Below are positions 9,810-27,033 of a stretch of DNA of 37,776 nt, piece by piece. A program made the translations under genes and the position numbers. Source of the stretch: Spirochaetales bacterium Spiro_03 (GTDB lineage: Bacteria > Spirochaetota > Spirochaetia > Sphaerochaetales > Sphaerochaetaceae); contig LVBE01000062.1 in assembly GCA_001603105.1 (NCBI GenBank), positions 1 to 37,776 of the forward strand, read 5' to 3'. The notes under the pieces are model-generated. The model saw only the letters and a list, made by a program, of their open reading frames with translations, ran no database searches and was not told where the DNA came from. The stretch's first letter is position 1. Each line of letters begins with the position of its first letter.

Positions 9810-9838
9810 TTGTGCTTTGGTGGTAATCGGTGTACATT
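9810..9838 (+). promoter_or_regulatory. promoter of the mraZ (division/cell wall) cluster
   Basis: TTGTGC (9810-9815), a 17-base spacer, TACATT (9833-9838), 55 bases before the mraZ start and just ahead of the MraZ boxes. It is the only convincing promoter between the terminator at 9732 and mraZ. Confidence 0.6.
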
Positions 9839-9840
9839 AA

Positions 9841-9865
9841 TGGGTACCAGTGGGAAGTAATCCCA
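9841..9865 (+). promoter_or_regulatory. MraZ boxes (autoregulatory operator)
   Basis: TGGGT (9841-9845) and TGGGA (9851-9855) are two TGGGN repeats exactly 10 bases apart, as in the known MraZ operators. An inverted TCCCA (9861-9865) continues the 10-base phase. They start at about the predicted transcription start, so bound MraZ would block the cluster promoter. A weaker TGGTG follows at 9872. Confidence 0.75.
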
Positions 9866-9892
9866 AATTTATGGTGTCCGAGGAGCTCTGTG

Positions 9893-10348
9893 ATGGTGAC
9901 CGGTGAGTTTTACACCACCATTGATGACAAAGGTCGCATCCTCATTCCCGCCCGACTGCGTAGTGCACTCGCCACTGAGGCGCTCTATGTGACGCGGGGT
10001 TTGGAGACGTGCCTGTGGCTCATGGTCCCACACGACTTCGAGACGCTGAAAGACACGATCATCAGCACCACAAGCTCGATGTTCGATCGCAAGCTCAGGA
10101 TCTTGCAGCGGGGGATGATCGCCCCGGCCCAACTCTGTGACTTTGACAAGGTCGGGCGCGTCAACATCCCTATCAGCCTACGCGAGAGCGTGGGGCTATC
10201 GACGAAGGAGGAGTCGGTGCTCCTCGGTACCGGCCACTACCTTGAGCTGTGGAACAAGAGCACCTACGAGGCCTACCTCTCCGAGTCCATGGATGAGTTC
10301 CTCGACGCGGCTCAGTCACTGAGCCAGATGATGGAGAGGCAGCGGTAA
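9893..10348 (+). CDS. mraZ: transcriptional regulator MraZ
   Basis: A 151-residue protein with two AbrB-like beta-barrel DNA-binding halves. Each carries the family DxxGR motif: DDKGRILIPARLR in the first half and FDKVGRVNIPISLR in the second. MraZ forms rings that bind TGGGN repeats and usually repress its own division/cell-wall cluster; such repeats are found just upstream. ATG 9893 is chosen because AGGAG at 9881-9885 lies seven bases away and yields the typical start MVTGEFYTTIDDKG. Its stop shares one base with the rsmH start (TAATG). Confidence 0.95.
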   Translation: MVTGEFYTTIDDKGRILIPARLRSALATEALYVTRGLETCLWLMVPHDFETLKDTIISTTSSMFDRKLRILQRGMIAPAQLCDFDKVGRVNIPISLRESVGLSTKEESVLLGTGHYLELWNKSTYEAYLSESMDEFLDAAQSLSQMMERQR

Positions 10349-11229
10349 TGGAATACGTCCACTATTCAGTCATGGCAGAAGAAGTGCTTCACTACCTCGT
10401 CCCACCAGCGGATCAGCAGGCGATCCTCGTCGATTGCACCTGTGGCGAAGGGGGGCATACTCACCGCTTTCTCTCCACCTATCCCGATCTCTCGGTCATC
10501 GGCCTCGATCGTGACGCCTCGATCCTTGAGAAGGCGAAGCGGCGCATGGAGGCGTTTGACGGTCGGTTCACTCCCTTCAAGGTCACGTTCGATGCGTTCT
10601 TCAAAGACACTGGACAGCAGCTCTACGACCTGATCCTCTTTGATCTGGGCATCTCCTCATACCACTATGAAGAGAGCGGGCGGGGCTTCTCCTTTCGCAA
10701 GGAAGAGGTGTTGGATATGCGCCTGGATACCACCGATCCGATCAGCGCGATGGATGTGGTCAACGGCTATCAGGAGCAACGGCTCGCCGATTTAATCTAC
10801 ACCTATGGTGAGGAGCGCTATAGCCGCCGCATTGCACGGGCGATTGTCGAGGCGAGAAAGCTCACGAAAATCAAGGAGAGCGACCAGCTGGCACAGATCA
10901 TCTACAAGGCAGTGCCGCCGGCGTACCGCTACGGCCATCTCCATCCGGCCACCAAGACCTTCCAGGCGATCCGTATCGAAGTCAACGGAGAGCTTGACCG
11001 CATCGAGGTCGCTCTCGGCGGAGCGATCAAGGCACTGAAGCGGGGAGGACGGATCGGGGTCATCAGCTTCCACTCGCTCGAAGATCGGATCGTCAAATGG
11101 TTCTTCAAGGCCCAGGACCCGGCCTTGATCACCATCTTGACCAAGAAACCAATCATCCCCTCGGACGAGGAACGGGCTGAGAATCCAGCAAGCAGGAGCG
11201 CCAAGCTCAGAGTCATTGAGAAACTATAG
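10348..11229 (+). CDS. rsmH: 16S rRNA (cytosine-1402-N4) methyltransferase RsmH
   Basis: A 293-residue SAM-dependent methyltransferase that modifies C1402 in the 16S rRNA decoding site; formerly MraW. Motif I is DCTCGEGGHTHRFL (family DGTxGxGGHS, slightly divergent). It is followed by IGLDRDASIL, DLILFDLGISSYH, GFSFRKEEVLDMRLD and the late GRIGVISFHSLEDRIVK. Length is slightly under the family's usual 300-310. It overlaps mraZ by one base and sits in its conserved second position of the cluster. Confidence 0.95.
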   Translation: MEYVHYSVMAEEVLHYLVPPADQQAILVDCTCGEGGHTHRFLSTYPDLSVIGLDRDASILEKAKRRMEAFDGRFTPFKVTFDAFFKDTGQQLYDLILFDLGISSYHYEESGRGFSFRKEEVLDMRLDTTDPISAMDVVNGYQEQRLADLIYTYGEERYSRRIARAIVEARKLTKIKESDQLAQIIYKAVPPAYRYGHLHPATKTFQAIRIEVNGELDRIEVALGGAIKALKRGGRIGVISFHSLEDRIVKWFFKAQDPALITILTKKPIIPSDEERAENPASRSAKLRVIEKL

Positions 11230-11243
11230 AAGGAGGAATCGAT

Positions 11244-11576
11244 ATGGACCAACAATGGCATCACAGCGAGTATGGCAATACCCATCATCGTCAGGGCACA
11301 GCCAGGGGCCTGTTGACCCTCATCCTGATCGCAGCGCTCGTCGCTTCTCTGCTCTTGCCGCTGCATCAGAAGGCGATCAACCGCTCCTTGACCCTGCAAT
11401 ACCGCACACTGCATCAAACGTACATAACCCGCTCGGAGCAGCAACGCCTCTTGAAGGCGACCATCTCCTCGATGGGGATGCCCGAGTCATTGATCGATGG
11501 CGCGTGGCAGCAGGACATCCAGCTGATCCCCATCACTGCAAACACAGTCAATAGCGTGGCTCGGACAAGCCTATGA
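11244..11576 (+). CDS. ftsL: FtsL-like small membrane division protein
   Basis: A 110-residue protein with a basic cytoplasmic N-terminus, one membrane helix (about residues 23-40, rich in Leu/Ala/Ile) and a short extracytoplasmic part with heptad-like Leu/Gln/Arg spacing (about 45-75). Size, topology and position right after rsmH are those of FtsL, which with FtsB/FtsQ links FtsA/FtsZ to FtsW/FtsI at the septum. FtsL sequences are poorly conserved, so the call rests mainly on topology and context. AGGAGG at 11231-11236 decides the start. It ends in an ATGA overlap with murF. ftsI and murE, which often follow ftsL, are absent here. Confidence 0.7.
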   Translation: MDQQWHHSEYGNTHHRQGTARGLLTLILIAALVASLLLPLHQKAINRSLTLQYRTLHQTYITRSEQQRLLKATISSMGMPESLIDGAWQQDIQLIPITANTVNSVARTSL

Positions 11577-12958
11577 GTAGTGATCAGAGCCTTGGAAATC
11601 TGGGCCTCACACCCACCTCCCTTGCACCGGTTATGCAGGGTTTGTGCCTGCGCCCATCCAAGGTCCTGATCACAAATGCCCAGATCGATAGCCGCCTGTG
11701 CCAGGCGGGGTCGGTCTTTTTCGCCATACGCGGCAGCTCTGTCGACGGCGCTGCCTTCATCCAAGACGCCCAGAGTCGGGGAGCAGCGGCAGTGGTCGTC
11801 CCCCGCCACCAGGGGCCGATGGCACTGGCCACCGTCAATTGTGCGGTCATCGCCGTCGATGATGCGCTCTCTGCGCTGCACATGCTCGCCCGTTTCTACA
11901 TCAAGGAGCACCGGCATGTGACACTGATCGGCATCACCGGCAGCGTGGGCAAGACGACGACCAAGGAGGCGCTGGCGACGATTCTCTCATACAGTGGGCC
12001 GACAGCCAAGACACCGGGCAATTTGAACAGCGAGTATGGCTTGCCACTGTCGATCTTCACCCTCGCTCTCGGCGATCGGTATGGGGTCTTTGAACTTGGC
12101 ATCGACCACGTCGGTGAGATGGAGCGCCTGGTTTCGACGCTCACGCCTTCCTACGCGCTGTTGACGAACGTGGGAATCTCCCATCTGGAGAAGTTCGGCT
12201 CAACGGCTGTCACAGCCCATGAGAAGGCAAGGATCTTCCACCCCGCGATCGAGGCGGGGTTTGTCAGTGCGCACTGCTCCCACCTGTCGTTGATCCAAAA
12301 GCGGTCGCCCACTGTCTTGCAGCAATACTCGCTTGCCGACATCAAAGCGATCGATCTGGGCCTGGAGGGGTGGAGGCTGACATGGAAAGGACAGACGTTT
12401 ACTATCAGGGCAGTGGGACGCCACCTCTTGGAGGACGTAGTAGGGGCGATCACTGTCGCCGATCGACTGGGCTTGGATGCACCCTCGATCGCCCGTTCCT
12501 TGGAGGGCTTTGGCTCGATGCCCGGCCGCACCTCGGTGCAAAGCGGGGCCATCACGATTATCGATGATACCTACAACGCCAGCTGGGATTCTACCAGCAC
12601 CATCGTCTCCTACCTATCGAGGCTGATGTGGCAGGGGGGAAAGAAGGTGGTGCTCGGACCGATGAAGGAGTTGGGCTCGGCCAGTGAGAGCGCGCACCGC
12701 AAGGTCGCCGGCCTGCTTGCTCGCTCCTCGTTCACCGGAGCCCACCTCTATGGTCCTGAGATGGAGGTGGCCAAAGATGAGCTGAAGCGGCTGGGATTTG
12801 GGGGAGAGGTCACGTGGACCGAAGATTTCGACATCCTCGGACAGCAGGTAAAGCGAACGGTAGAAAAAGGGGACCTGGTGTTGTTGAAGGCCAGTCGCAG
12901 TGTCGCCATCGACCGCCTGATCCCGTCGCTGAGTCAGCAGTGGGGTGCCTATGCCTAG
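11573..12958 (+). CDS. murF: UDP-MurNAc-tripeptide--D-Ala-D-Ala ligase MurF
   Basis: A 461-residue cytoplasmic Mur ligase that adds D-Ala-D-Ala to the UDP-MurNAc tripeptide using ATP. The N-terminal substrate domain contains ITNAQIDSR, the region that binds the UDP part. The central ATP domain has the P-loop GITGSVGKTTTKE at residues 120-132 and the MurF-type TPGNLNSEYGLP at 147-158. The C-terminal domain has IIDDTYNA. The start overlaps ftsL by four bases (ATGA), and the stop lies 8 bases into mraY. D-Ala-D-Ala use fits with MraY, MurG, FtsW and the PBP being retained. Confidence 0.94.
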   Translation: MSSDQSLGNLGLTPTSLAPVMQGLCLRPSKVLITNAQIDSRLCQAGSVFFAIRGSSVDGAAFIQDAQSRGAAAVVVPRHQGPMALATVNCAVIAVDDALSALHMLARFYIKEHRHVTLIGITGSVGKTTTKEALATILSYSGPTAKTPGNLNSEYGLPLSIFTLALGDRYGVFELGIDHVGEMERLVSTLTPSYALLTNVGISHLEKFGSTAVTAHEKARIFHPAIEAGFVSAHCSHLSLIQKRSPTVLQQYSLADIKAIDLGLEGWRLTWKGQTFTIRAVGRHLLEDVVGAITVADRLGLDAPSIARSLEGFGSMPGRTSVQSGAITIIDDTYNASWDSTSTIVSYLSRLMWQGGKKVVLGPMKELGSASESAHRKVAGLLARSSFTGAHLYGPEMEVAKDELKRLGFGGEVTWTEDFDILGQQVKRTVEKGDLVLLKASRSVAIDRLIPSLSQQWGAYA

Positions 12959-13880
12959 CATCGCCCTCCGTGTCGTCTCATCAGCATTTGTGTGCTGGCT
13001 TCTTTCTCTTTGGCTGTTGAAGAGCCATCGGGGCGGGGCAGTCATCAAGGATGAGCTCTTGCAGACGCAGCGCCCCAAGCAAGGCACGCCCGTTGTCGGT
13101 GGCATCGCCTTCAGCCTTGCCACCATCACAGTCAGCCTCCTCGATCCGCATCTGTTCGAGCCGGCTTTCTATATCCCGCTGGTGACGCTCATCATCTTTG
13201 CCATCACTGGCTTGATCGATGACCGAGCCAAGGCACGTCTCATCTCTTCTGATGGACTGACGTCTTTGACCAAGCTCCTCCTACAGAGCCTGGGTGCCGT
13301 TGCAGTGCTCTCTTTGATGGCTCAGGCCGGTTTTGTCGATACATCGCTTGCTATCGGTCCCTATACCCTGGCCCTGGGGCCTTGGTATTGGATTCTTGCG
13401 TTCTGCTACCTGCTCTTCTTCGTCAATGCAGTGAATATCACCGACGGTCTTGACACCCTTGCAGCCGGTTCAAGCATTCCGCTATTGTTGTTGATCAGCG
13501 CCATCGCGATCCGCCGCGGCAGCCAGCCTCCGGCTTCACTGCTAGGCGCTCTGGCAGTCTTTTTGTTCTTCAACGCCCATCCTGCCCGCTACTTTATGGG
13601 CGATGTCGGCAGCCACGCCCTCGGCTCCTCCATCGCAGTATATGCGCTCTTGTTCAAGGTGGAGGTGATGCTCCTGGTGGCCGCAGGACTCTTCTTGGTC
13701 GAGCTGGCCACTAGCCTCATCCAGATCATCTCGATCCGTCGGTTCGGATACAAGGTCTTCACCATCGCCCCACTGCACCATGCCTATGAGCTGAAGGGAC
13801 TGGGTGAGCGGACGATCGTCCGCCGCTTTGTGATGGCATCCTGGGTGTGCGGGGCCCTCTCCTTGATCCTCCTCTGGTAG
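12951..13880 (+). CDS. mraY: phospho-MurNAc-pentapeptide translocase MraY
   Basis: A 309-residue polytopic membrane enzyme that transfers phospho-MurNAc-pentapeptide to undecaprenyl phosphate, making lipid I. Conserved loops are visible in order: KQGTPVVGG, GLIDDRAKA with the Asp-Asp pair, NAVNITDGLDTLAAG, FFNAHPARYFMGDVGSHALG, and PLHHAYELKG, where the usual HHH of the final loop reads HHA. About ten hydrophobic helices separate them. ATG 12951 overlaps the murF stop; GTG 12945 would add two residues. It is somewhat shorter than E. coli MraY. Confidence 0.92.
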   Translation: MPSIALRVVSSAFVCWLLSLWLLKSHRGGAVIKDELLQTQRPKQGTPVVGGIAFSLATITVSLLDPHLFEPAFYIPLVTLIIFAITGLIDDRAKARLISSDGLTSLTKLLLQSLGAVAVLSLMAQAGFVDTSLAIGPYTLALGPWYWILAFCYLLFFVNAVNITDGLDTLAAGSSIPLLLLISAIAIRRGSQPPASLLGALAVFLFFNAHPARYFMGDVGSHALGSSIAVYALLFKVEVMLLVAAGLFLVELATSLIQIISIRRFGYKVFTIAPLHHAYELKGLGERTIVRRFVMASWVCGALSLILLW

Positions 13881-13886
13881 AAAGCC

Positions 13887-15053
13887 ATGGACGGTTACGA
13901 CGACTACCACCTGAACACCCAGGCCAAATCAGGTGCCACGGGCCGGACAGTGAACACGATCCTTCTTTTTGCTGCAGTCACGACGCTGTTGACCGTCGGT
14001 GGCTTGGTGATGCTCTACAGCGCCTCCTACAATGAAGCCCTCTCCTTTGAGGTGGCTCCCGCCTACTTTGTCCGCCGCCAGCTGATCTTCGCCCTTGTGG
14101 CCCTGCTGCCCATGGCCTTGGCCCTCCTCTTGCCCAAGCAGCTGATCGGGCGCCTCAGTGGTCTGCTGCTGCTCGGGGTCGTCGCCCTGTTGGCCCTGAC
14201 GCTCTTCAGTTCGTTTGGCCAGCAGAAGTTCGGATCGCGCCGCTGGCTTGCCATAGCAGGGCTGCCGGCTATCCAGCCATCCGAGTTCGCCAAGATCGCC
14301 CTGGCTCTCTTTCTGGCAGCGTATGGTGAACGCCCCCCGTCTTCTAAACACCCGCTCACCCATGTTCTGGTCCCATCGCTAGCCGTGTTGCTCACCACCA
14401 TCCTGATCCTCGCCGGCCGTGACTACAGTTCAGCGTTACTGGTGTTGCTGCAAGGCCTCATCATGCTCGTAGGCCTTGGTCTATCGATGGGCTATCTGAT
14501 CGTGCTACTTTTGTTCATCACTCCACCGGCACTGGTGGCCCTCTTTGGCCAAGGCTACCGCATCAGGCGCCTGGTCTCCTTTCTCCTTCCCTCACTAGAC
14601 CCAAAGGGAATCAACTACCAGGTGTCGGTGAGCCTGAAGGCGATCAGGCGCGGCGGGCTCTTCGGGGTAGGCCTGGGCAACGGGATCTACAAGGAGGGGC
14701 TCTTGCCTGAAGTCCATAGCGACTTCATCTTCGCCTCGATCGCCGAGGAGATCGGCTTCATCGGAGTCGTACTCATCATCGCGCTCTTCATCATCTACAT
14801 TCATCTCGGCTTTACGGCAGCGCGCAGGTTGTGGGACAGTGACCGCTTTTTCTCCCTGCTCGCCTTCGGCCTGACGACGATGGTCGGCCTGCAAGCTCTG
14901 CTCAATCTTGCCGTCGTCACCGCCTTGTTGCCACCGACCGGCGTTCCGCTGCCCTTCTTCAGCCAGGGAGGGACCAATTTGTTGGTGATGCTCACCTCCT
15001 CAGCGTTCATAGCCCGCGCCTTGGTGCGTGCACAACGAGGAGGACAGCGTTGA
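13887..15053 (+). CDS. ftsW: SEDS peptidoglycan glycosyltransferase FtsW
   Basis: A 388-residue SEDS-family protein with about ten membrane helices that polymerises lipid II at the septum with a partner class B PBP. Typical pieces are FVRRQL, RRWLAIAGLPAIQPSEFAK, GRDYSSALL, INYQVSVSLKAIRRGGLFGVGLGNG, the HSDFIFASIAEEIGFIG segment with the essential Asp, and TGVPLPFFSQGGTN near the C-terminus. An unusually long hydrophilic N-terminus (about 25 residues) precedes the first helix. FtsW rather than RodA is chosen from the division-cluster context. The stop overlaps the ftsQ start (TGATG). Confidence 0.93.
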   Translation: MDGYDDYHLNTQAKSGATGRTVNTILLFAAVTTLLTVGGLVMLYSASYNEALSFEVAPAYFVRRQLIFALVALLPMALALLLPKQLIGRLSGLLLLGVVALLALTLFSSFGQQKFGSRRWLAIAGLPAIQPSEFAKIALALFLAAYGERPPSSKHPLTHVLVPSLAVLLTTILILAGRDYSSALLVLLQGLIMLVGLGLSMGYLIVLLLFITPPALVALFGQGYRIRRLVSFLLPSLDPKGINYQVSVSLKAIRRGGLFGVGLGNGIYKEGLLPEVHSDFIFASIAEEIGFIGVVLIIALFIIYIHLGFTAARRLWDSDRFFSLLAFGLTTMVGLQALLNLAVVTALLPPTGVPLPFFSQGGTNLLVMLTSSAFIARALVRAQRGGQR

Positions 15054-15799
15054 TGCGACTCTCCATCAAAGTCCGCCTTGTTGCACTCATGGTCGTTCTA
15101 GCAGCGCTTTTGTTTGTGCTCTGGCTCTATACCGCCCCTTCGCATACGGTCAGCCAGATCGTCATCTCCGTCGATGGGCACGAAGCGCCCACTGAGGTCA
15201 AGCAAGAGCTTGCCGCCTACATCGGCTCGCCGCTGATGCGCCTGCCTCTCGGGAAAATGGAGGCACAGCTCAAAAGACTGGGGACGGTCAAGACCGCTGC
15301 GATCAAACGCCGGCTGCCTGATACCGTACAGGTCGACCTCACCCTCACCGAGAGTGCGGTGGTGGTACACAGCGGCGATGATGGACGCTACTACCTGGTC
15401 AAGGATGGTGCGTTGGTCGCTATCCCTGCCGTCGATGCTGCACCCTACCGTCAGCGGGTGATGACCGTTGAAGTGCCCTCCTCCTACGCTGCCTTGATGG
15501 TGCGCTGGGGAGTGGACCAGCTCTTTGGCCAAGTCATTGCCCTGACGCAATCGCTGGCGGATGAAAGCGCCTTGATAACTCGGGTAAAATACGATAATAA
15601 TAGCAGTAATAGCTTTGGAAAGATGGTGTTGGAACTCTCGTCCCTGCACGCCCAGATTTGGGTCAGGGAGCCTGTGGGACCTGAGCGGGTACGGACGGCA
15701 ATCTCTTTGGTCCAAGCCGACCAAGAGCGCTCGCTCTACTTCCTCAGTTCAGAGACCAGACGCTACGATCTCTATCGCGAGGGTTTGGTGCGCAGGTAA
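15053..15799 (+). CDS. ftsQ: FtsQ/DivIB-type division protein
   Basis: A 248-residue single-pass membrane protein: a short basic N-terminus, a membrane helix at about residues 8-26, then a POTRA-like domain (about 33-100: IVISVDGHEAPTEVKQELAA...VKTAAIKRRLPDTVQVDL) and a C-terminal FtsQ domain. It is expected to hold FtsL/FtsB and recruit FtsW/FtsI. AGGAGG upstream (about 15038-15043) supports ATG 15053. An AT-rich stretch at 15572-15612 inside the gene, encoding Asn/Ser-rich sequence, may hold a promoter for ftsA-ftsZ. Confidence 0.88.
   Translation: MRLSIKVRLVALMVVLAALLFVLWLYTAPSHTVSQIVISVDGHEAPTEVKQELAAYIGSPLMRLPLGKMEAQLKRLGTVKTAAIKRRLPDTVQVDLTLTESAVVVHSGDDGRYYLVKDGALVAIPAVDAAPYRQRVMTVEVPSSYAALMVRWGVDQLFGQVIALTQSLADESALITRVKYDNNSSNSFGKMVLELSSLHAQIWVREPVGPERVRTAISLVQADQERSLYFLSSETRRYDLYREGLVRR
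15572..15600 (+). promoter_or_regulatory. possible internal promoter for ftsA-ftsZ
   Basis: TTGATA (15572-15577), 17 bases, TAATAA (15595-15600), in a sharply AT-rich island inside ftsQ, about 220 bases before ftsA. The -10 is imperfect, but base composition differs clearly from the surrounding coding DNA. Confidence 0.3.
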
Positions 15800-15821
15800 T
15801 CTGGAGCAAAGGGGTTGCACG

Positions 15822-17069
15822 ATGGCTGGTGAAAAAATGTTGATGGCGCTGGATATAGGGTCGAGCAAGACCCGTGCAGTGATAGGCTCGGTGGACCGAG
15901 AGGGCACCTTGATGGTCGAGGGGGTGTGCGAACACCCTAGCGAAGGTGTACGCCAAGGCTCCATCATCAACATTGAACAGACGTTGAAGACCATCAAGAC
16001 GGTCATCAACGAAGCAGAACTGCAGGCTGGGGCAGAGGTCAATGAAGTGATCATCGGCATCGGCGGGGAGAACATCATTGGCTTTCCATCCACCGGGGTG
16101 GTGGGGATCAACAGCAAGGACCAGGAGATCAAGCGCGAGGATATCTTTCGTAGCCTTGAAGTCGCCCGGGCCTTCGAGCTGCCCCAGGATCGGGAGATCT
16201 TGCACACCCTGGTCCAAGAGTTCCAGATCGACGGCCAAAGTGGAGTCAAAGATCCGATCGACATGCTGGCCCACCGCCTCGAAAGCAAGGTCCTGATCGT
16301 CACCGCAAGCTCCCAGCTCTCCCAGTTGCAGCGCAGGTGCATCCAGCGTGCAGGCCTCGGAGTGCAGCGCCTGGTGCTGCAGAGCCTTGCCGATAGCGAA
16401 GTGGTCCTCTCAAGCGAGGAGCGGGAGATGGGTACGATTCTGATCAATATCGGCAGTGGCGTCACCGACCTCATCGCCTATGGGCGGGGAGCGCCGCTGT
16501 ACACCGGGGGAGTCAATCTCGGCGGCGAGGCGGTCACTGCAGATATCGCATACATTCTCAACAAGACCCGATCCACGGCCGAACAGATCAAGGTCGATAG
16601 CGGACACAGCTACGTACCGTCGGTTGGGAGCGACGAGATGGTCATCATCCCACAAGTCGGTGGCTTGCCGCCGATCAAGATGCCCAAGCGCGAATTGAGC
16701 AAGGTCATCGAGCCGCGGATGGCTGAGATCTTCAGCAAGCTGAAGAGCGATCTGGAGAAGGCGCGCGTCGGCTCCTCCTACGGAGGGGGAGTTGTCCTCG
16801 TAGGTGGCGGAGCCCTGCTCAGTGGCGTCACCGAACTGGCAAGCGAGATCTTCCACATGCCTGCGCGCATGGGCTTTCCCGAGGCGATCGGGGGCTTGGA
16901 CCGCTCCTACATCAGCCCTGACTATACGACGGTGCTCGGCCTGCTCAAGAGTGAGGCGCGCAAGGTCAAGGAGAGTGCGCCGGTGAAGGGGACGCACGCC
17001 AAGCGACGGTCACGCAAGGAGGGGCGCTTCGCCCCCCTGTTGCGTGGATTCTTCAGAACACTCTTTTAG
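15822..17069 (+). CDS. ftsA: cell division protein FtsA
   Basis: A 415-residue actin-like ATPase that tethers FtsZ to the membrane. The phosphate 1 motif ALDIGSSKTRAVIG is at residues 9-22. The 1C domain follows (IINIEQTLKTIKTVINEAE...VIIGIGGENI). The phosphate 2 region INIGSGVTDLIAYGRG and the adenosine motif GGGVVLVGGGALLSG are clear. The C-terminus ends in FAPLLRGFFRTLF, an amphipathic membrane-targeting helix after a basic linker. ATG 15822 is the family-typical start. A longer upstream extension in frame lies wholly within ftsQ and is rejected. Confidence 0.95.
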   Translation: MAGEKMLMALDIGSSKTRAVIGSVDREGTLMVEGVCEHPSEGVRQGSIINIEQTLKTIKTVINEAELQAGAEVNEVIIGIGGENIIGFPSTGVVGINSKDQEIKREDIFRSLEVARAFELPQDREILHTLVQEFQIDGQSGVKDPIDMLAHRLESKVLIVTASSQLSQLQRRCIQRAGLGVQRLVLQSLADSEVVLSSEEREMGTILINIGSGVTDLIAYGRGAPLYTGGVNLGGEAVTADIAYILNKTRSTAEQIKVDSGHSYVPSVGSDEMVIIPQVGGLPPIKMPKRELSKVIEPRMAEIFSKLKSDLEKARVGSSYGGGVVLVGGGALLSGVTELASEIFHMPARMGFPEAIGGLDRSYISPDYTTVLGLLKSEARKVKESAPVKGTHAKRRSRKEGRFAPLLRGFFRTLF

Positions 17070-17094
17070 ATGGACATGAGATGAGGATGCATAT

Positions 17095-18321
17095 ATGGAT
17101 TTTGGAATGTTCGAAGTAGAGGATATGATCCAAGACGACCAAGCCAGCAGTACGGTGATCAAGGTGATCGGTGTCGGCGGCGCTGGGGGGAACGCGGTCA
17201 ATCGGATGATCGCCAGTGGCCTGAAGAAAGTACACTTTGTCACGATGAACACCGACATGCAGGCGTTGCAGCGCTCCAATGCCCAGACTCGGCTGCCCAT
17301 CGGCCGTCAGTTGACCGGCGGATTGGGAGCCGGAGGCGTGCCCGAGGTCGGAGAGAAGGCTGCCCAGGAGAGCAAGGAGGAGATCCGCCGTGAGGTGGAG
17401 AGTGCCGACATGGTCTTCATCACCGCAGGCATGGGCGGGGGAACCGGTACCGGGGCAGCGCCAATCGTCGCTGAGATCGCCAAAAGTTGCAACGCTCTGA
17501 CCGTTGCGGTGGTAACCACACCCTTTGCATTTGAAGGAAAGAAGAAGCTGGTATTGGCCCAGGCCGGCATCGAGAAGCTACGTAAGCAAGTCGATACCCT
17601 GATCATCATCCCCAACCAATATCTGCTGAAGGTCGTTGAGAACAATACTCCGATCAAGCAAGCGTTTCTGATGGCCGATGAGGTGCTCTACATGGGCGTG
17701 CAGGGCATCAGTGAGCTCATCACCGAGCCAGGGGAGATCAATATCGACTTCGCCGACGTGCGAACGGTGATGAAGGGCAAGGGTGACGCGCTGATGGGCA
17801 TCGGCTTTGGTGAGGGTGCCAACCGCGCCGTTGATGCGGCTCGCCAGGCGGTGAGCAACCCGCTGTTGGAGAGCGCCTCCATCGAGGGGGCAAAGAGTGT
17901 CCTCGTCAACCTTGCCGGCAGCGACAACCTGACGCTGCAGGAGTATCAGGATGTCGTTGAATTGGTCACTGCCCAGTGCGCCGAGGATGCCCTGATCATC
18001 GCCGGCCAAGCATTCAACCCTGAACTTGGCGACCGTATCAAGGTGACGGTCGTCGCCACCGGCTTTGAACGCCAGATGGGTGTCGTCGGCTCCGAGGTCG
18101 TCGAGCGTGAGACAGGGCACCGTCGCTTTGGCACAGCCGATACCCAACCAGCTGAGCGCAGCGCAGGCGATGAGCACACAGACGATGTGGCCACCATCCA
18201 GGTGAACCGTTGGCAGGATCTACAGAAGCAGCTAGGCAAAGCAACCAACCCTGCCTCGACCGACTATTCGATCCCGGCGGTGCTGCGCTATGCTCGATCC
18301 AAGGAGCAAGAGGGCCAGTGA
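17095..18321 (+). CDS. ftsZ: cell division GTPase FtsZ
   Basis: A 408-residue tubulin homologue that forms the cytokinetic ring. The N-terminal GTPase has IGVGGAGGNAVNRMI, NTD, and the tubulin signature GGGTGTGAAP. The T7 loop region INIDFADVRTVM with its catalytic Asp is intact. A variable linker (about residues 335-385, acidic and polar) leads to the C-terminal conserved peptide YSIPAVLRYAR, which would bind FtsA; a short charged tail follows. Start ATG 17095 lies 25 bases after ftsA. The stop overlaps the next gene by one base (TGATG). Confidence 0.97.
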   Translation: MDFGMFEVEDMIQDDQASSTVIKVIGVGGAGGNAVNRMIASGLKKVHFVTMNTDMQALQRSNAQTRLPIGRQLTGGLGAGGVPEVGEKAAQESKEEIRREVESADMVFITAGMGGGTGTGAAPIVAEIAKSCNALTVAVVTTPFAFEGKKKLVLAQAGIEKLRKQVDTLIIIPNQYLLKVVENNTPIKQAFLMADEVLYMGVQGISELITEPGEINIDFADVRTVMKGKGDALMGIGFGEGANRAVDAARQAVSNPLLESASIEGAKSVLVNLAGSDNLTLQEYQDVVELVTAQCAEDALIIAGQAFNPELGDRIKVTVVATGFERQMGVVGSEVVERETGHRRFGTADTQPAERSAGDEHTDDVATIQVNRWQDLQKQLGKATNPASTDYSIPAVLRYARSKEQEGQ

Positions 18322-22053: not shown

Positions 22054-23403
22054 ATGGAATATCCAAAGAGTCGCAAGCTTGACGAGCTCAAGCCCAGGGA
22101 GATCGTCAGAGAGCTGGATAATTATATCATCGGTCAGGATCAGGCGAAGCGGACCATCGCCGTCGCCATCCGCAACCGAACTCGCCGCAAACGCCTGCCT
22201 GAGGCGATTCGCGACGAGGTTTCGCCGAAGAACATCATCATGATCGGCCCGACCGGAGTCGGCAAGACCGAGATCGCCCGACGGATCGCCCGCCTCTCCA
22301 ATGCCCCGTTCATCAAGGTGGAGGCGACAAAGTACACCGAGGTCGGCTACGTCGGCCGTGATGTCGAGTCGATCATCCGCGACCTGATGGGGGTTGCGGT
22401 GCAGCAGGTGAAGGCCGAGCTTGCCGAGTACCAGAAGGAGAAGGTCCAGGCCCGGGTCGAGGAGCGTCTGCTTGACCTGATCCTCCCTCCCACCGCTGCC
22501 CCCGTTGGCCAGGACACCCATGCTACCACGCGCGAGAAGTTTCGAACGATGCTGCGCGACGGTGCTTTTGATGATCGGGAGGTTGAGATCAACGTCGCCT
22601 CGCGTAAACGCGTAGGCATCGAGGTCATGGGCCAGCCGAATATGGAAGAGCTGCAAGAGGCGATGCAGAGCCTCGGCTCAATCTTTGGCAACGGCAAGGG
22701 GCACAACCGCAAGGTGAGCATACGCCGGGCCCGCGAGATCTTCACCGAGGAGGAGACGGAGAAGGCTGTCGACACCGACCGTGCCATCGATGAGGCCAAA
22801 GACCGTGTCGAGCAGATGGGGATTGTCTTCATCGATGAGATCGACAAGGTCGCCAAAAGCGGTGGCGCTTCCAGCGGCATCGATGTCTCGCGCGAAGGGG
22901 TCCAGCGTGACCTGCTACCGATCATCGAGGGGACCAGTGTCTCCACCAAGTGGGGGATCATCGATACGACGCACATCCTCTTCATCGCCAGTGGTGCCTT
23001 CCATGTCTCCAAACCCAGTGACCTGATTCCTGAGTTGCAGGGGCGCTTTCCACTGCGCGTCGAGCTCAATGAGCTGAAGAGCGATGACTTCTATCGCATC
23101 CTCACCGAGCCGACCAATGCGATCACGATGCAGTACCGGGAGTTGTTGGCGACCGAAGGCGTGACGATTGAATTCGAGGATGGGGCGATCAGGCGCATCA
23201 GCGAAATCGCCTGGCAGGTGAACTCGACCAACGACAACATCGGCGCCCGACGCCTGTTCACCGTCATGGAGAAGCTGCTTGAGGAGTTGAGCTTCAGCGC
23301 TGATGAACTGAGCGGGCAGACCATCACCATCACGGCAAAGTACGTGGATGAACGCCTCTCTGAGATCATGAAGAACGAAGACCTCACCCGCTTCATCCTC
23401 TAA
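22054..23403 (+). CDS. hslU: HslU ATPase (ClpY)
   Basis: A 449-residue AAA+ unfoldase that feeds substrates to HslV. Walker A GPTGVGKTE is at residues 65-73, the pore loop GYVGRD at 98-103, and Walker B IVFIDEIDK precedes the sensor regions. The I-domain insertion is the variable stretch from about residue 110 to 240. The extreme C-terminus DLTRFIL fits the tail that docks between HslV subunits. Length is normal. In Bacillus and Treponema the next genes are codY and/or flagellar genes; here an FlhF relic follows immediately. Confidence 0.96.
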   Translation: MEYPKSRKLDELKPREIVRELDNYIIGQDQAKRTIAVAIRNRTRRKRLPEAIRDEVSPKNIIMIGPTGVGKTEIARRIARLSNAPFIKVEATKYTEVGYVGRDVESIIRDLMGVAVQQVKAELAEYQKEKVQARVEERLLDLILPPTAAPVGQDTHATTREKFRTMLRDGAFDDREVEINVASRKRVGIEVMGQPNMEELQEAMQSLGSIFGNGKGHNRKVSIRRAREIFTEEETEKAVDTDRAIDEAKDRVEQMGIVFIDEIDKVAKSGGASSGIDVSREGVQRDLLPIIEGTSVSTKWGIIDTTHILFIASGAFHVSKPSDLIPELQGRFPLRVELNELKSDDFYRILTEPTNAITMQYRELLATEGVTIEFEDGAIRRISEIAWQVNSTNDNIGARRLFTVMEKLLEELSFSADELSGQTITITAKYVDERLSEIMKNEDLTRFIL

Positions 23404-23413
23404 GGCAGTGGCT

Positions 23414-24256
23414 ATGGAGTTCTTGCACCTTGAAGCCGAAGATTATGAGAGCGCACTGCGCAAGGCCCGACAGACGTGGGGCAGCGCGGTGCGTGTCCAT
23501 ACCCGCCGCGACATTGTCACTAAGCGCGGGATCCGAGGCTGTGAGATCTCCTTCTACCTTGTGGACCTCGACGCCAAAAAGCGCTTTGATGGGCGCTCAC
23601 ACCTCAGCTTTCTCTTGGCAGCCAATGGCATCGACTCAGAGCTTTCCCCCATCAAAGCGCTGGTTTCCTCCATCGATGAGCTTGAGCACATGGAGCTCGA
23701 AGTACGGCTCATCGAAGCCCTTTTTGCCAACATCAATTACGCAGAGGCAGGGCGCAGGGGTTTGATCCACCTTGTCGGCTCCCAAGCCTTTGATGCGGCT
23801 CACGCTCTGGCCCGCCACTATCGTGATCGCGAGGCTATCACCTGCGCCCTTCTTTGTGAACGTGTAGTCAACAGCGACGGCGTCGTCGGCGACGACGATG
23901 TGCCCATATACGATGCTACAGGCGGTCTGCAGAGCGTAGACCTTGACGCCTATGAGACGGTGCTCTTGGTCGGCAGCGACAGCTGGGTTTTCGAGCACTG
24001 GGGTGGGCATCATGTCTATACGATCGCGGTGACGAGCATCGAGGCGATAGCTCAGGCCAAGGCCGATGGTCTGTTGGTCACCGACCTCGACACCGCATCC
24101 AAGGCAGGGCAGCTACTCTCCCACCTCGCTGACTGTCAGATCGCCTTCGCCTACACCCTCGACGGTGATGGAGTGGTCCACCCCGCCGATGCCTCGCTGC
24201 TCTTGAGTCTCCTGGAGGGCTTCAGCCTTGATGTACAGGCGCTCTCATTCTCGTGA
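23414..24256 (+). CDS. degenerate FlhF-like protein without GTPase motifs
   Basis: A 280-residue protein best explained as an eroded FlhF, the SRP-type GTPase of flagellar placement. The N-terminal 50 residues keep the FlhF leader pattern (EDYESALRKARQTWGSAVRVHTRRDI, then a beta strand). The end keeps the order LVTDLDTASKAGQLLSHL, then AFAYTLDGDGVVHPADA, then LLEGF, which matches FlhF's TKLDET..., TDGQRVPEDL and LxGF. But the P-loop region reads HLVGSQAFDAAH (residues 119-130) with no GKT, and TKxD is TDLD (223-226). The protein is also far shorter than FlhF (about 370-430). No frameshift is seen. GTG 23408 is an alternative start. It lies just after hslU, where flagellar genes normally begin, and overlaps the PBP gene end by 12 bases. 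Confidence 0.65.
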   Translation: MEFLHLEAEDYESALRKARQTWGSAVRVHTRRDIVTKRGIRGCEISFYLVDLDAKKRFDGRSHLSFLLAANGIDSELSPIKALVSSIDELEHMELEVRLIEALFANINYAEAGRRGLIHLVGSQAFDAAHALARHYRDREAITCALLCERVVNSDGVVGDDDVPIYDATGGLQSVDLDAYETVLLVGSDSWVFEHWGGHHVYTIAVTSIEAIAQAKADGLLVTDLDTASKAGQLLSHLADCQIAFAYTLDGDGVVHPADASLLLSLLEGFSLDVQALSFS

Positions 24257-25900
24257 TGGGACCAGTTTGCCCTGACTGACCAACGATCTGATGATCGCCC
24301 CGATCGCTGGTGCTGCTATATTGGCTCCCCAGATATCACTGCCTTTCGGGTCGTGTGACCCAACATAGATGATGTAGCGGGGCTCGTCGATCGGCACCAT
24401 TGCCAAGGCGCTGGCATAGAGCGCGCCATCGGTGTACGTGCCGCTTTCGACGTTCAAAGTCTGGGCTGTCCCGGTCTTGATACCGACTTTGACGCCATCG
24501 ACCTGTGCCCGTGTACCAGTCCCTTCTGTGGCGGCCTGGGCCATCCCCTCCCTGATCGTCTGTGTTATTGCGGGGTCGAAGACCTGGGCCACTGGGGTGG
24601 GGGTGCGTCGATACAGCAGTGTCCCATCGGCAGTGCTGCGGCGGCTGTAGATCAAGTGGGGGGCCAACAGGACTCCTTGTGGACCGAGGGCGGTCGCCGC
24701 AACGGCGATGTGCAGTGCAGTGGTCAGCAACTCCTGGCCGAAGGCGATGGTCGGTTTGCTGCGCGCTGACCACAGGCTCGGCTCGCTGATCATCGAGCGG
24801 GCTTTGCTGGGCAGATCGATATCCCAGGCGGACGTGAAGCCCAGGTCAACGAGGCCTTTGTAGAATGCATCGGTGTCGGTCTCTAGCGCCCAGTGGGCGA
24901 TCGCCCCGTTGCACGACTTGCTGATCATCGTCTGTGGGTCGACCTTGCCATGGGCCGATGAGCAGGTGATGGTCACCGCCCTACCGCCTGCATTGAACGT
25001 GTATGAGCCGTCACAGAAGAACGGTTCGTCAGTGTGTGCCTGTCCTGCCTTCAGGATCGAGGCGAGGCTGAAGAGCTTGAAGACCGAACCTGGCTCACTG
25101 AGGGCGTTGACTGCGTTGCTGCGCCGCTGATCGGCGCTTGATGCGGCATAGCGGTTTGCGTCATACCATGGCCAGCTGCCAAGGGCGAGGATATCGCCGG
25201 TTGTGGCATCGAGGACGATGGCGGCGCTCCACTGAGGTTCCCACGCATCGGCGATCGCCTGAAGCTGCACATCGACGGCGTACTGGATATCCAGATCGAG
25301 GGTGAGGGTGATCTCATCGCCATAGGTGACCAGTTGGTCGCCGACCTGGGGCCACGGATTGAGGTACTGCTCCTGGCTCAGCTCGATGCCCTCGATGCCC
25401 TCTCCGCTGCTGTTGGTGAAACCGATGACCTGTGAGCCGTGGAAGTGGGCAGGCCAGGAGCGGCCCTCCCGTTTTTCGATGCTCACTTGGTTTTGCAACC
25501 GGTTCTTGGCAAGCGCCTGTCCCAGTTCAGCGGCTGTCTGTTCATCGATCCGATCCTTGATGAGGGCATAGGTCGTATACAGGCTTGCACGCTCGATGAT
25601 CTGTTGGCTACTCATCTGCACAAAGGGGGCGACGACATCGCTGACGAAGGGGAGGTCCTCGATTGCATTGAGGTGGAAGTAGACGCCCCAGTGGGGGGTC
25701 TGGATCGCCAAGATCCTCCCGTTTCGGTCAAGGATCGTCCCCCGTTCCACCCGCTGTGCTACCGCAGGGTCGGTGTAGGTGCGCCCACGCAGCGGCGAGG
25801 CAAGCATCAGGATGGCCACTTTGATCAGCACAGTGATGAACAATAGGGTGATAAGGATCTGCAACAGACCGACATGCGAACGATTTGGACTGGTAGCCAT
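24245..25900 (-). CDS. class B penicillin-binding protein (FtsI/PBP2-type transpeptidase)
   Basis: A 551-residue bitopic class B PBP. It has a short N-terminus, one membrane helix (about residues 13-34), a dimerisation/pedestal region with RGTILDRNGRILA (53-65), and a complete transpeptidase domain. The three active-site motifs are SVFK (272-275, Ser272 nucleophile), SCN (329-331) and KTGT (475-478). It would cross-link peptides made from lipid II, most likely as the partner of FtsW since no other PBP is visible here. It is placed away from the division cluster and inverted, and it lacks C-terminal PASTA repeats. No clear ribosome site precedes ATG 25900. FtsI versus elongation PBP2 cannot be settled from sequence alone. 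Confidence 0.9.
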   Translation of the reverse strand: MATSPNRSHVGLLQILITLLFITVLIKVAILMLASPLRGRTYTDPAVAQRVERGTILDRNGRILAIQTPHWGVYFHLNAIEDLPFVSDVVAPFVQMSSQQIIERASLYTTYALIKDRIDEQTAAELGQALAKNRLQNQVSIEKREGRSWPAHFHGSQVIGFTNSSGEGIEGIELSQEQYLNPWPQVGDQLVTYGDEITLTLDLDIQYAVDVQLQAIADAWEPQWSAAIVLDATTGDILALGSWPWYDANRYAASSADQRRSNAVNALSEPGSVFKLFSLASILKAGQAHTDEPFFCDGSYTFNAGGRAVTITCSSAHGKVDPQTMISKSCNGAIAHWALETDTDAFYKGLVDLGFTSAWDIDLPSKARSMISEPSLWSARSKPTIAFGQELLTTALHIAVAATALGPQGVLLAPHLIYSRRSTADGTLLYRRTPTPVAQVFDPAITQTIREGMAQAATEGTGTRAQVDGVKVGIKTGTAQTLNVESGTYTDGALYASALAMVPIDEPRYIIYVGSHDPKGSDIWGANIAAPAIGAIIRSLVSQGKLVPSRE

Positions 25901-25941: not shown

Positions 25942-27033
25942 ATGGCAAAAGATTATTATGATGACATGGAAAACCAGTACCCACGCCATGGGGGACGGGA
26001 TGGAGGCAGCCGACCGAGCAAGACCCTGATCGTGACCATTGTGTTCGGAATCGCGATCTGTGTCGCGGTGATCGTCGTCTGGTACCGCTTCTTCCCCCAG
26101 ACCCAGTCACAGCAGGGTCAGCAGGTGGTCATCGTCCAGCCGGCGACCGAGATTCCCACCGTCAGCGATGCACCGCAACTTACGCAGCCTCCCACTGCCG
26201 CCAAGGCCGATGACCAGCGCACCCCAGTCTTGGAGGAGCGCAGCCAAGCCGTCTCACTCAGCGATCGACCGATAACAAGAGAGGGCACTTCGGTTGGGGT
26301 GCAGTATGCGACCCACAAGGTAGCGGCAGGTGAGGACCTCTCCTCGATCGCCGCACTCTATGGACTTACCACCCAGACGTTGATCAGTGTCAACCAAATT
26401 CGCAATGTCCAGGCGATCGTGGAGGGGGTGAGCCTGAGGATTCCTGATCGCGACGGCCAGCTCTATACCGTACGTGAGGGGGATATGCTCTCCACAATCG
26501 CCCGCCGCTACAGTCCGACGCTGGGCTGGAAGAGCCTTCAGGAAGTCAATGGGCTGAAGAGTGAGATCATCACCGTCGGTCAGCAGCTCTTCATCCCCGA
26601 CACAACTCGCGCCGCCTCGGTCCCACTTGCTGACCGCTCGCCCATCCAATTTGAGAAGCCGACTATAGGCAAGGTGACCACCCTCTTTGGCCAGCCGTGG
26701 ATCAATCCGGCTACCGGATCGTCGGAGCAGTTGTCCGGAATCCTCATCCAGGGTAGCTGGGGCCAAGCGGTAGTCGCCGCCGGTAGCGGTCAGGTCGTCG
26801 ATGCTGGCTATGAGGTGCAAGGCAAGGGGCGCTTTGTGACCCTCAGCCATGAGGGCGGGTATCGGACCAGCTACCATCACCTGGAGAACGTCGAGGTGAA
26901 GATCGGCATGACGCTGCCAAAGGGTGGGGTCATTGGCTCGATTGGGACAAGCGGGACCGATTGGCAAAAGCCCACGCTCTTCTTCAGCATCGAGCAGTCT
27001 GGCATCTCGCTCGATCCCAGCCAGTTCTTCTAG
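25942..27033 (+). CDS. LysM protein with inactive LytM (M23-like) domain
   Basis: A 363-residue membrane-anchored envelope protein: a basic/acidic cytoplasmic head, one membrane helix (29-47), a Gln/Pro/Thr-rich linker, LysM 1 (122-168), LysM 2 (174-219) and a LytM/M23 domain (about 262-352). LysM binds peptidoglycan glycan chains. The M23 zinc ligands are lost: HxxxD is Leu264 and Leu268, and HxH is Thr345 and Phe347; only His313 of the YHHL strand remains. This is the NlpD/EnvC situation, where a dead LytM domain activates amidases, so an amidase-activator role during division is inferred. AGGAAAGG lies 12 bases before ATG 25942. Its stop shares the palindrome CTAG with the secA stop. Confidence 0.85.

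Follow-up and report, generated by a model that had tools for sequence, protein, structure and literature searches.

An FlhF-derived pseudo-GTPase retained behind hslU in flagellum-less Sphaerochaetaceae

The gene behind hslU

The window analysed here is the whole stretch of 37,776 nucleotides from contig LVBE01000062.1 of Spirochaetales bacterium Spiro_03, whose genome (2.34 Mb, 92.8% complete, 238 contigs) belongs to the same genus as Sphaerochaeta halotolerans. Between hslU and a gene for a class B penicillin-binding protein (PBP) lies an open reading frame (ORF) that ends with a stop codon at 24256 and starts with an ATG at 23414 or a GTG at 23408, the frame being unbroken. The ATG aligns with the start of the orthologous genes (MEFLxLEA...) and is separated from the hslU stop codon by 10 bp. 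An earlier note, made from sequence alone, had described an uninterrupted ORF right after hslU, and this description held. The features of the locus are as follows.

22054..23403, plus strand: hslU, encoding an AAA protease ATPase, on the left border of what was the flagellar operon (ORF call, Pfam AAA_2, HslU orthologues).
23404..23413, plus strand: hslU/flhF junction of 10 bp; in flagellated spirochaetes 20-22 kb, including the flagellar operon, lie here.
23414..24256, plus strand: FlhF-derived pseudo-GTPase of 280 amino acids (ORF, alignment, profile match, structure model, motif table).
23414..23560, plus strand: N-terminal B domain (residues 1-49) with a beta-alpha-beta-beta arrangement, corresponding to the FliG interaction domain (FID) of FlhF (model, identity, FID description in PMC11236974).
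23771..23803, plus strand: remnant of the G1 motif or P-loop, LVGSQAFDAAH (LVGPAGVGKTT in intact relatives; alignment, motif table).
24080..24091, plus strand: remnant of the G4 motif, TDLD (TKLD in intact relatives; alignment, motif table).
24155..24223, plus strand: remnant of the C-terminal FlhF block, TLDGDGVVHPADASLLLSLLEGF (alignments, profile match).
24245..25900, minus strand: class B PBP, conserved as the neighbour on the right and transcribed towards the flhF remnant (Pfam Transpeptidase, synteny).

The PBP gene adjoins flhF across the family, and its product has apparently intact SxxK (SVFK), SCN and KTG motifs, although Sphaerochaeta reportedly lacks penicillin-binding proteins. 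Upstream of xerC-hslVU, positions 9830-18321 carry what looks like a complete cluster of division and cell-wall genes (mraZ, rsmH, murF, mraY, ftsW, ftsQ, ftsA, ftsZ). Most of these names rest on gene order; ftsZ alone entered the synteny search.

Descent from FlhF and loss of the GTPase motifs

In an alignment with intact relatives, LVGSQAFDAAH occupies the FlhF column of LVGPAGVGKTT, TDLDTASKAGQLL stands opposite TKLDETQGIGNIL, LDGDGVVHPAD opposite ADGQGIPEDFHRAD, and LLEGF opposite RLRGF. A search of 100 related genomes revealed orthologues at the same site, most of them with an intact P-loop. The two closest to the window protein, from genomes G004 (52%) and G014 (46%), also lack the GTPase motifs, and a motif table shows that G1, G2, G3, G4 and G5 are all replaced or deleted in these two proteins and in that of the window genome (G000). 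The earlier note had claimed that the FlhF N-terminal pattern and C-terminal order are kept while the P-loop and the TKxD lysine are gone. Both claims held, since every landmark it quoted falls in an FlhF column, and the loss is wider than it had stated; the intact GTPase of most relatives was not visible to it.

On its own, the window protein matches nothing in Pfam or NCBIfam (none in NCBIfam even at E 10), which places it below the cut-off of the curated FlhF model, and a first contig search with this protein as query likewise gave no match. A profile of the three motif-less proteins (window protein and two closest orthologues), when compared with six flagellate FlhF proteins, instead aligns over residues 1-279 with an hhalign E-value of 3.1e-9 and a probability of 96%. 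The intact orthologues scanned from the same site match PF00448 (SRP54) and TIGR03499 (FlhF) at about 1e-31 to 1e-59. Searching PDB sequences with the three motif-less orthologues yielded insignificant matches only, to FlhF and SRP54 but also to ribosomal protein L4. The ORF at 23414-24256 is a vertically inherited descendant of flhF in which all GTPase motifs have been destroyed. We classify the product as an FlhF-derived pseudo-GTPase rather than as FlhF in the functional sense because it fails on GTPase motifs, curated score, gene context and flagellum. That it no longer binds GTP is an inference.

An AlphaFold2 model of the window protein, which rests on eight sequences with intact homologues among them, has a mean pLDDT of 57.7, with values of 70-85 for the first 50 residues. 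Residues 103-257 of the model superpose on SRP GTPases (top rows: VIA-align Z about 9-10, 127-151 residues, rmsd 2.9-4.2), and all ten Foldseek matches at E<=0.001 are SRP GTPases. A model without this fold, which according to the earlier note would have refuted its proposal, therefore did not materialize. An SRP-type NG fold is thus predicted, although the model is weak in this region, and because intact homologues were present in the alignment the fold call is supportive rather than independent proof. From the same eight sequences the intact S. halotolerans protein reached a pLDDT of 85, with the same N-terminal elements and with 8r9r, 2px3 and 2px0 as best matches, which indicates that the weakness of the window model does not reflect a failed alignment alone and that the NG part has strongly diverged.

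In Shewanella FlhF, FliG is bound by a small domain made up of the first 44 residues, with three strands and one helix (PMC11236974). The modelled B domain of the window protein (strand 3-8, helix 11-25, strands 26-36 and 39-49) has the make-up of the FID crystal structure described in that paper and aligns with flagellate FlhF from residue 1. A PDB search with a sequence profile of the B domain missed the FID crystal entry, so this match rests on position, secondary structure and the alignment to FlhF.

Compared with FlhF (Shewanella 8R9R and the FID 9EN1, Bacillus 2PX0/2PX3, spirochaete proteins, TIGR03499, PRK12723), the window protein has the same B-N-G order and N-terminal make-up, a profile match from end to end and descent from the flhF of an hslU-linked flagellar operon, but it has lost G1-G5 and has no curated FlhF model match, and its genome is devoid of FlhA, flagellin and FliG and of an adjacent FlhG. 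The intact FlhF-like proteins that other Sphaerochaetaceae without flagella encode, such as that of S. halotolerans 4-11 (L135), are orthologous to it, occupy the same site between hslU and the PBP gene and are 36% identical over the full length in this example. Unlike the window protein, they keep GPAGVGKTT, DTxG and TKLDE and are modelled with a confident FlhF NG fold (pLDDT 85, best match 8r9r). Ffh and FtsY (SRP54 and SRP receptor) share the NG fold but are without the B domain, which is included in the alignment of the window protein to FlhF. The open-access literature searched contained no report of FlhF in flagellum-less spirochaetes or of a pseudo-GTPase FlhF, and assigns FlhF only a role in controlling where and how many flagella form.

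Flagellum loss and repeated erosion of the GTPase

In 16 tabulated flagellated spirochaetes hslU and flhF are 20-22 kb apart, versus 10 bp in the window. For example, in G083, a flagellated member of the same class, hslU ends at 1,675,341 and flhF starts at 1,696,482, fliG lying about 4 kb behind hslU. In flagellated spirochaetes of this class flhA precedes flhF, and flhG usually follows it. The earlier note had suggested checking conservation in non-motile relatives, and 57 of the 60 family genomes carry flhF or its remnant directly behind hslU (full-length in 53, partial at contig ends in two, reduced to the B domain in two). In the other three (G007, G013, G029) hslU either abuts a contig end or escaped detection, so that absence of the gene is not shown. 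One of these, G029 (3.9 Mb), is odd in that neither HslU nor any SRP-type GTPase was found, which may reflect an incomplete assembly or unusual coding.

This adjacency in 57 of 60 genomes, set against 20-22 kb in flagellates, indicates that flhF survived beside the scar of a deleted operon, and supports the earlier proposal that the gene marks the former operon site. Apart from local gaps, this family and three others (f3, f4 and f17) share the order ftsZ-xerC-(tauE)-dprA-xerD-hslV-hslU-flhF-PBP(reverse)-M23-secA(reverse). In G083, the only flagellate checked downstream, no PBP gene was seen within 7 kb of flhF.

None of the 60 family genomes, including the window genome, has a match for FlhA, flagellin or FliG_C. 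Among six genomes of f3, f4 and f17, FlhA and flagellin were not found; FliG_C was not found in f4 and f17, and gave only a sub-threshold match in f3. Both f4 genomes and one f3 genome still have FlhG next to flhF, at the following positions.

L119, 4794-5657, minus strand; L120, 5045-5890, minus strand; L117, 4418-5305, plus strand: FlhG (MinD-like), beside flhF.

The FlhF-FlhG pair has thus outlived the flagellum in these two families, which have neither FlhA nor flagellin, while FlhG is not detectable as such in the window's own family or in f17. The window genome has no adjacent flhG, only weak MinD-like matches (best E 1.7e-8), and the gene context is hslU-gene-PBP without flhA. No second FlhF was found there. 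SRP-GTPase matches number three in most family genomes; in the window genome there are two in addition to the flhF remnant, and we take these two to be Ffh and FtsY. A full flagellar gene set with a normal FlhF elsewhere, the other finding that the earlier note would have accepted as refutation, is not seen, given the lack of FlhA, flagellin, FliG and a second FlhF.

A tree of HslU groups the non-flagellates together with a support of 0.985, the one exception being the flagellate G078 (L151), which sits on a very long branch inside their clade and could be a long-branch artefact or a true exception to a single flagellum loss. A 2025 preprint finds non-spiral spirochaetes to be monophyletic and to have almost no motility genes (PMC12236494); its main text does not mention flhF. 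We conclude that the non-flagellates lost the stretch from hslU to flhA, and most of them also the genes after flhF, leaving flhF behind. The site of the gene and the absence of the three marker flagellar proteins are shown, and we place the operon deletion in an ancestor of the Sphaerochaetaceae.

The GTPase motifs are kept in 34 of the 53 full-length family orthologues and lost in 19, which fall into at least five separate groups on the HslU tree. Because most flagellum-less relatives keep an intact GTPase, its loss postdates that of the flagellum. In the sister group of the window clade (G010, G022, G023), G2, G3 and G4 are gone while the P-loop still reads GPAGSGKTT or GPSGSGKTT, a hint at the order in which decay proceeded. 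The B domain fares differently. Identity between the window and S. halotolerans proteins is 67% in the B domain versus 28% in the G domain, and family-wide, from intact-intact to eroded-intact comparisons, identity falls from 44% to 27% in the G domain and from 47% to 41% in the B domain. Two genomes, G028 and G047, have nothing but the B domain of the gene left: an ORF of 60 codons follows hslU directly, and the end of the PBP gene lies right after it. Even this short ORF appears constrained (omega 0.135, likelihood ratio test statistic [LRT] 8.3), and its frame is conserved between G028 and G100, a third genome of the same genus (LRT 22.7). The GTPase motifs have been lost repeatedly, and the B domain has been retained preferentially.

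An apparent 5-bp tandem duplication (CGGATCGGAT) near the start of the G100 gene (L162, about 1475-1683) seems to put its start codon out of frame; decay, an assembly error or phase variation are all possible.

For the three motif-less orthologues, pairwise codon models give omega values of 0.14, 0.08 and 0.11, with LRT values of 72, 95 and 116 against omega 1. Since dS is saturated, only the direction of omega is firm for the window pairs and the values are approximate. Eroded pairs elsewhere in the family give LRT values of 128-240, omega is well below 1 in every pair tested, and the ORF is open in all 53 full-length orthologues. In simulations a neutral frame of this length stayed open in 11% of cases at 0.1 and in 1.4% at 0.2 substitutions per site. 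The observed divergence is far above this range. The neighbouring PBP and HslU are more constrained (omega 0.03-0.06). Strong purifying selection thus acts on the motif-less ORF, and of the alternatives "fossil or repurposed" in the earlier note, the second is favoured. Since the NG remnant is under such selection as well, usefulness may extend beyond the B domain.

Proposed role and rival explanations

A flagellum-less family of spherical spirochaetes keeps flhF under selection, and the window copy has lost the GTP machinery while keeping the docking domain, which makes a task unrelated to swimming probable. Our preferred reading, to which we assign a probability of roughly 0.72, is that the flhF remnant acts as a docking scaffold independent of the flagellum, with a B domain that binds a partner other than FliG. 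Partner binding, positional role and position in the cell are all inferred. According to this proposal, the ancestral flhF survived deletion of the flagellar operon and took on a flagellum-independent job, in which the B domain would be the working part that docks a cytoplasmic or membrane partner. The NG domain would be a formerly nucleotide-controlled anchor, its GTPase motifs still intact in most relatives. In Shewanella HubP, a polar landmark, is bound by this domain in a manner that apparently does not depend on nucleotide (PMC11236974). In the window lineage the NG domain, as a pseudo-GTPase, would be usable solely as a nucleotide-independent scaffold or anchor, and at least five lineages may be able to dispense with the motifs or even with the entire domain.

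Which process the scaffold would serve is less certain. A role in envelope growth or division is a guess, without data on partner or position; the conserved envelope-gene neighbours are suggestive only. The marking of poles or division sites by a non-GTPase, as put forward in the earlier note, likewise remains a suggestion without localization data. MgtE, whose N-terminal domain resembles FliG, was considered as a replacement for FliG in binding the B domain. About half of the family genomes lack MgtE_N, among them complete ones with an intact flhF, and MgtE is therefore not a general partner.

Three other explanations deserve consideration. The protein could still serve the SRP/Sec pathway (Ffh, FtsY, SecYEG) by placing or inserting membrane proteins, the pseudo-GTPase acting as a regulator. 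The NG fold of the SRP family fits this idea, as do the three SRP-GTPase matches in most family genomes, which are consistent with Ffh, FtsY and FlhF. However, conservation is highest in the B domain, a part missing from Ffh and FtsY, and G028 and G047 keep this domain while dropping NG; we therefore regard a role in this pathway as doubtful. Somewhat less credible still is a non-functional relic in decay, its motifs lost first and truncation following. Repeated motif loss, the truncation in G028 and G047, the apparent frameshift in G100 and a rate of evolution above that of the neighbouring PBP and HslU would all be expected of a relic. But 53 of 53 open full-length ORFs, omega well below 1 and LRT values of 72-240 for full-length pairs speak against it, as does the rapid closure of simulated neutral frames, and the dN/dS results largely refute it.

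The stretch might instead be kept for an effect in cis, such as translational coupling to hslVU or transcript stability, rather than for its protein. The gene begins a few bases past hslU, and many relatives have a Shine-Dalgarno-like purine run at or after the hslU stop codon. Selection at the amino-acid level and the preservation of a length of 280-500 amino acids in nearly all genomes leave almost no room for this explanation.

A whole flagellum-less family has kept FlhF while evolution dissected it, which provides a natural experiment on roles of the N-terminal domain beyond FliG binding. The suggested order of loss in non-spiral spirochaetes is structural flagellar genes, then FlhG, and GTPase motifs last and several times. 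A bolder reading is also possible, though we hold it to be rather unlikely, in which the N-terminal domain has an older, flagellum-independent role in cell organization that flagellate spirochaetes use too, FliG binding being a later addition. If true, this flagellum-less family would expose the older role of FlhF, down to a free-standing version of 60 amino acids.

Beyond the PBP gene, at 25942-27033 on the plus strand, the window encodes a LysM/M23 membrane protein with a short conserved N-terminal motif, YDDM or YDDI, before its transmembrane segment. Proteins of this kind are also encoded in L031, L118, L119 and L121, and the motif is present in every non-flagellate family looked at. It may conceivably be a docking motif.
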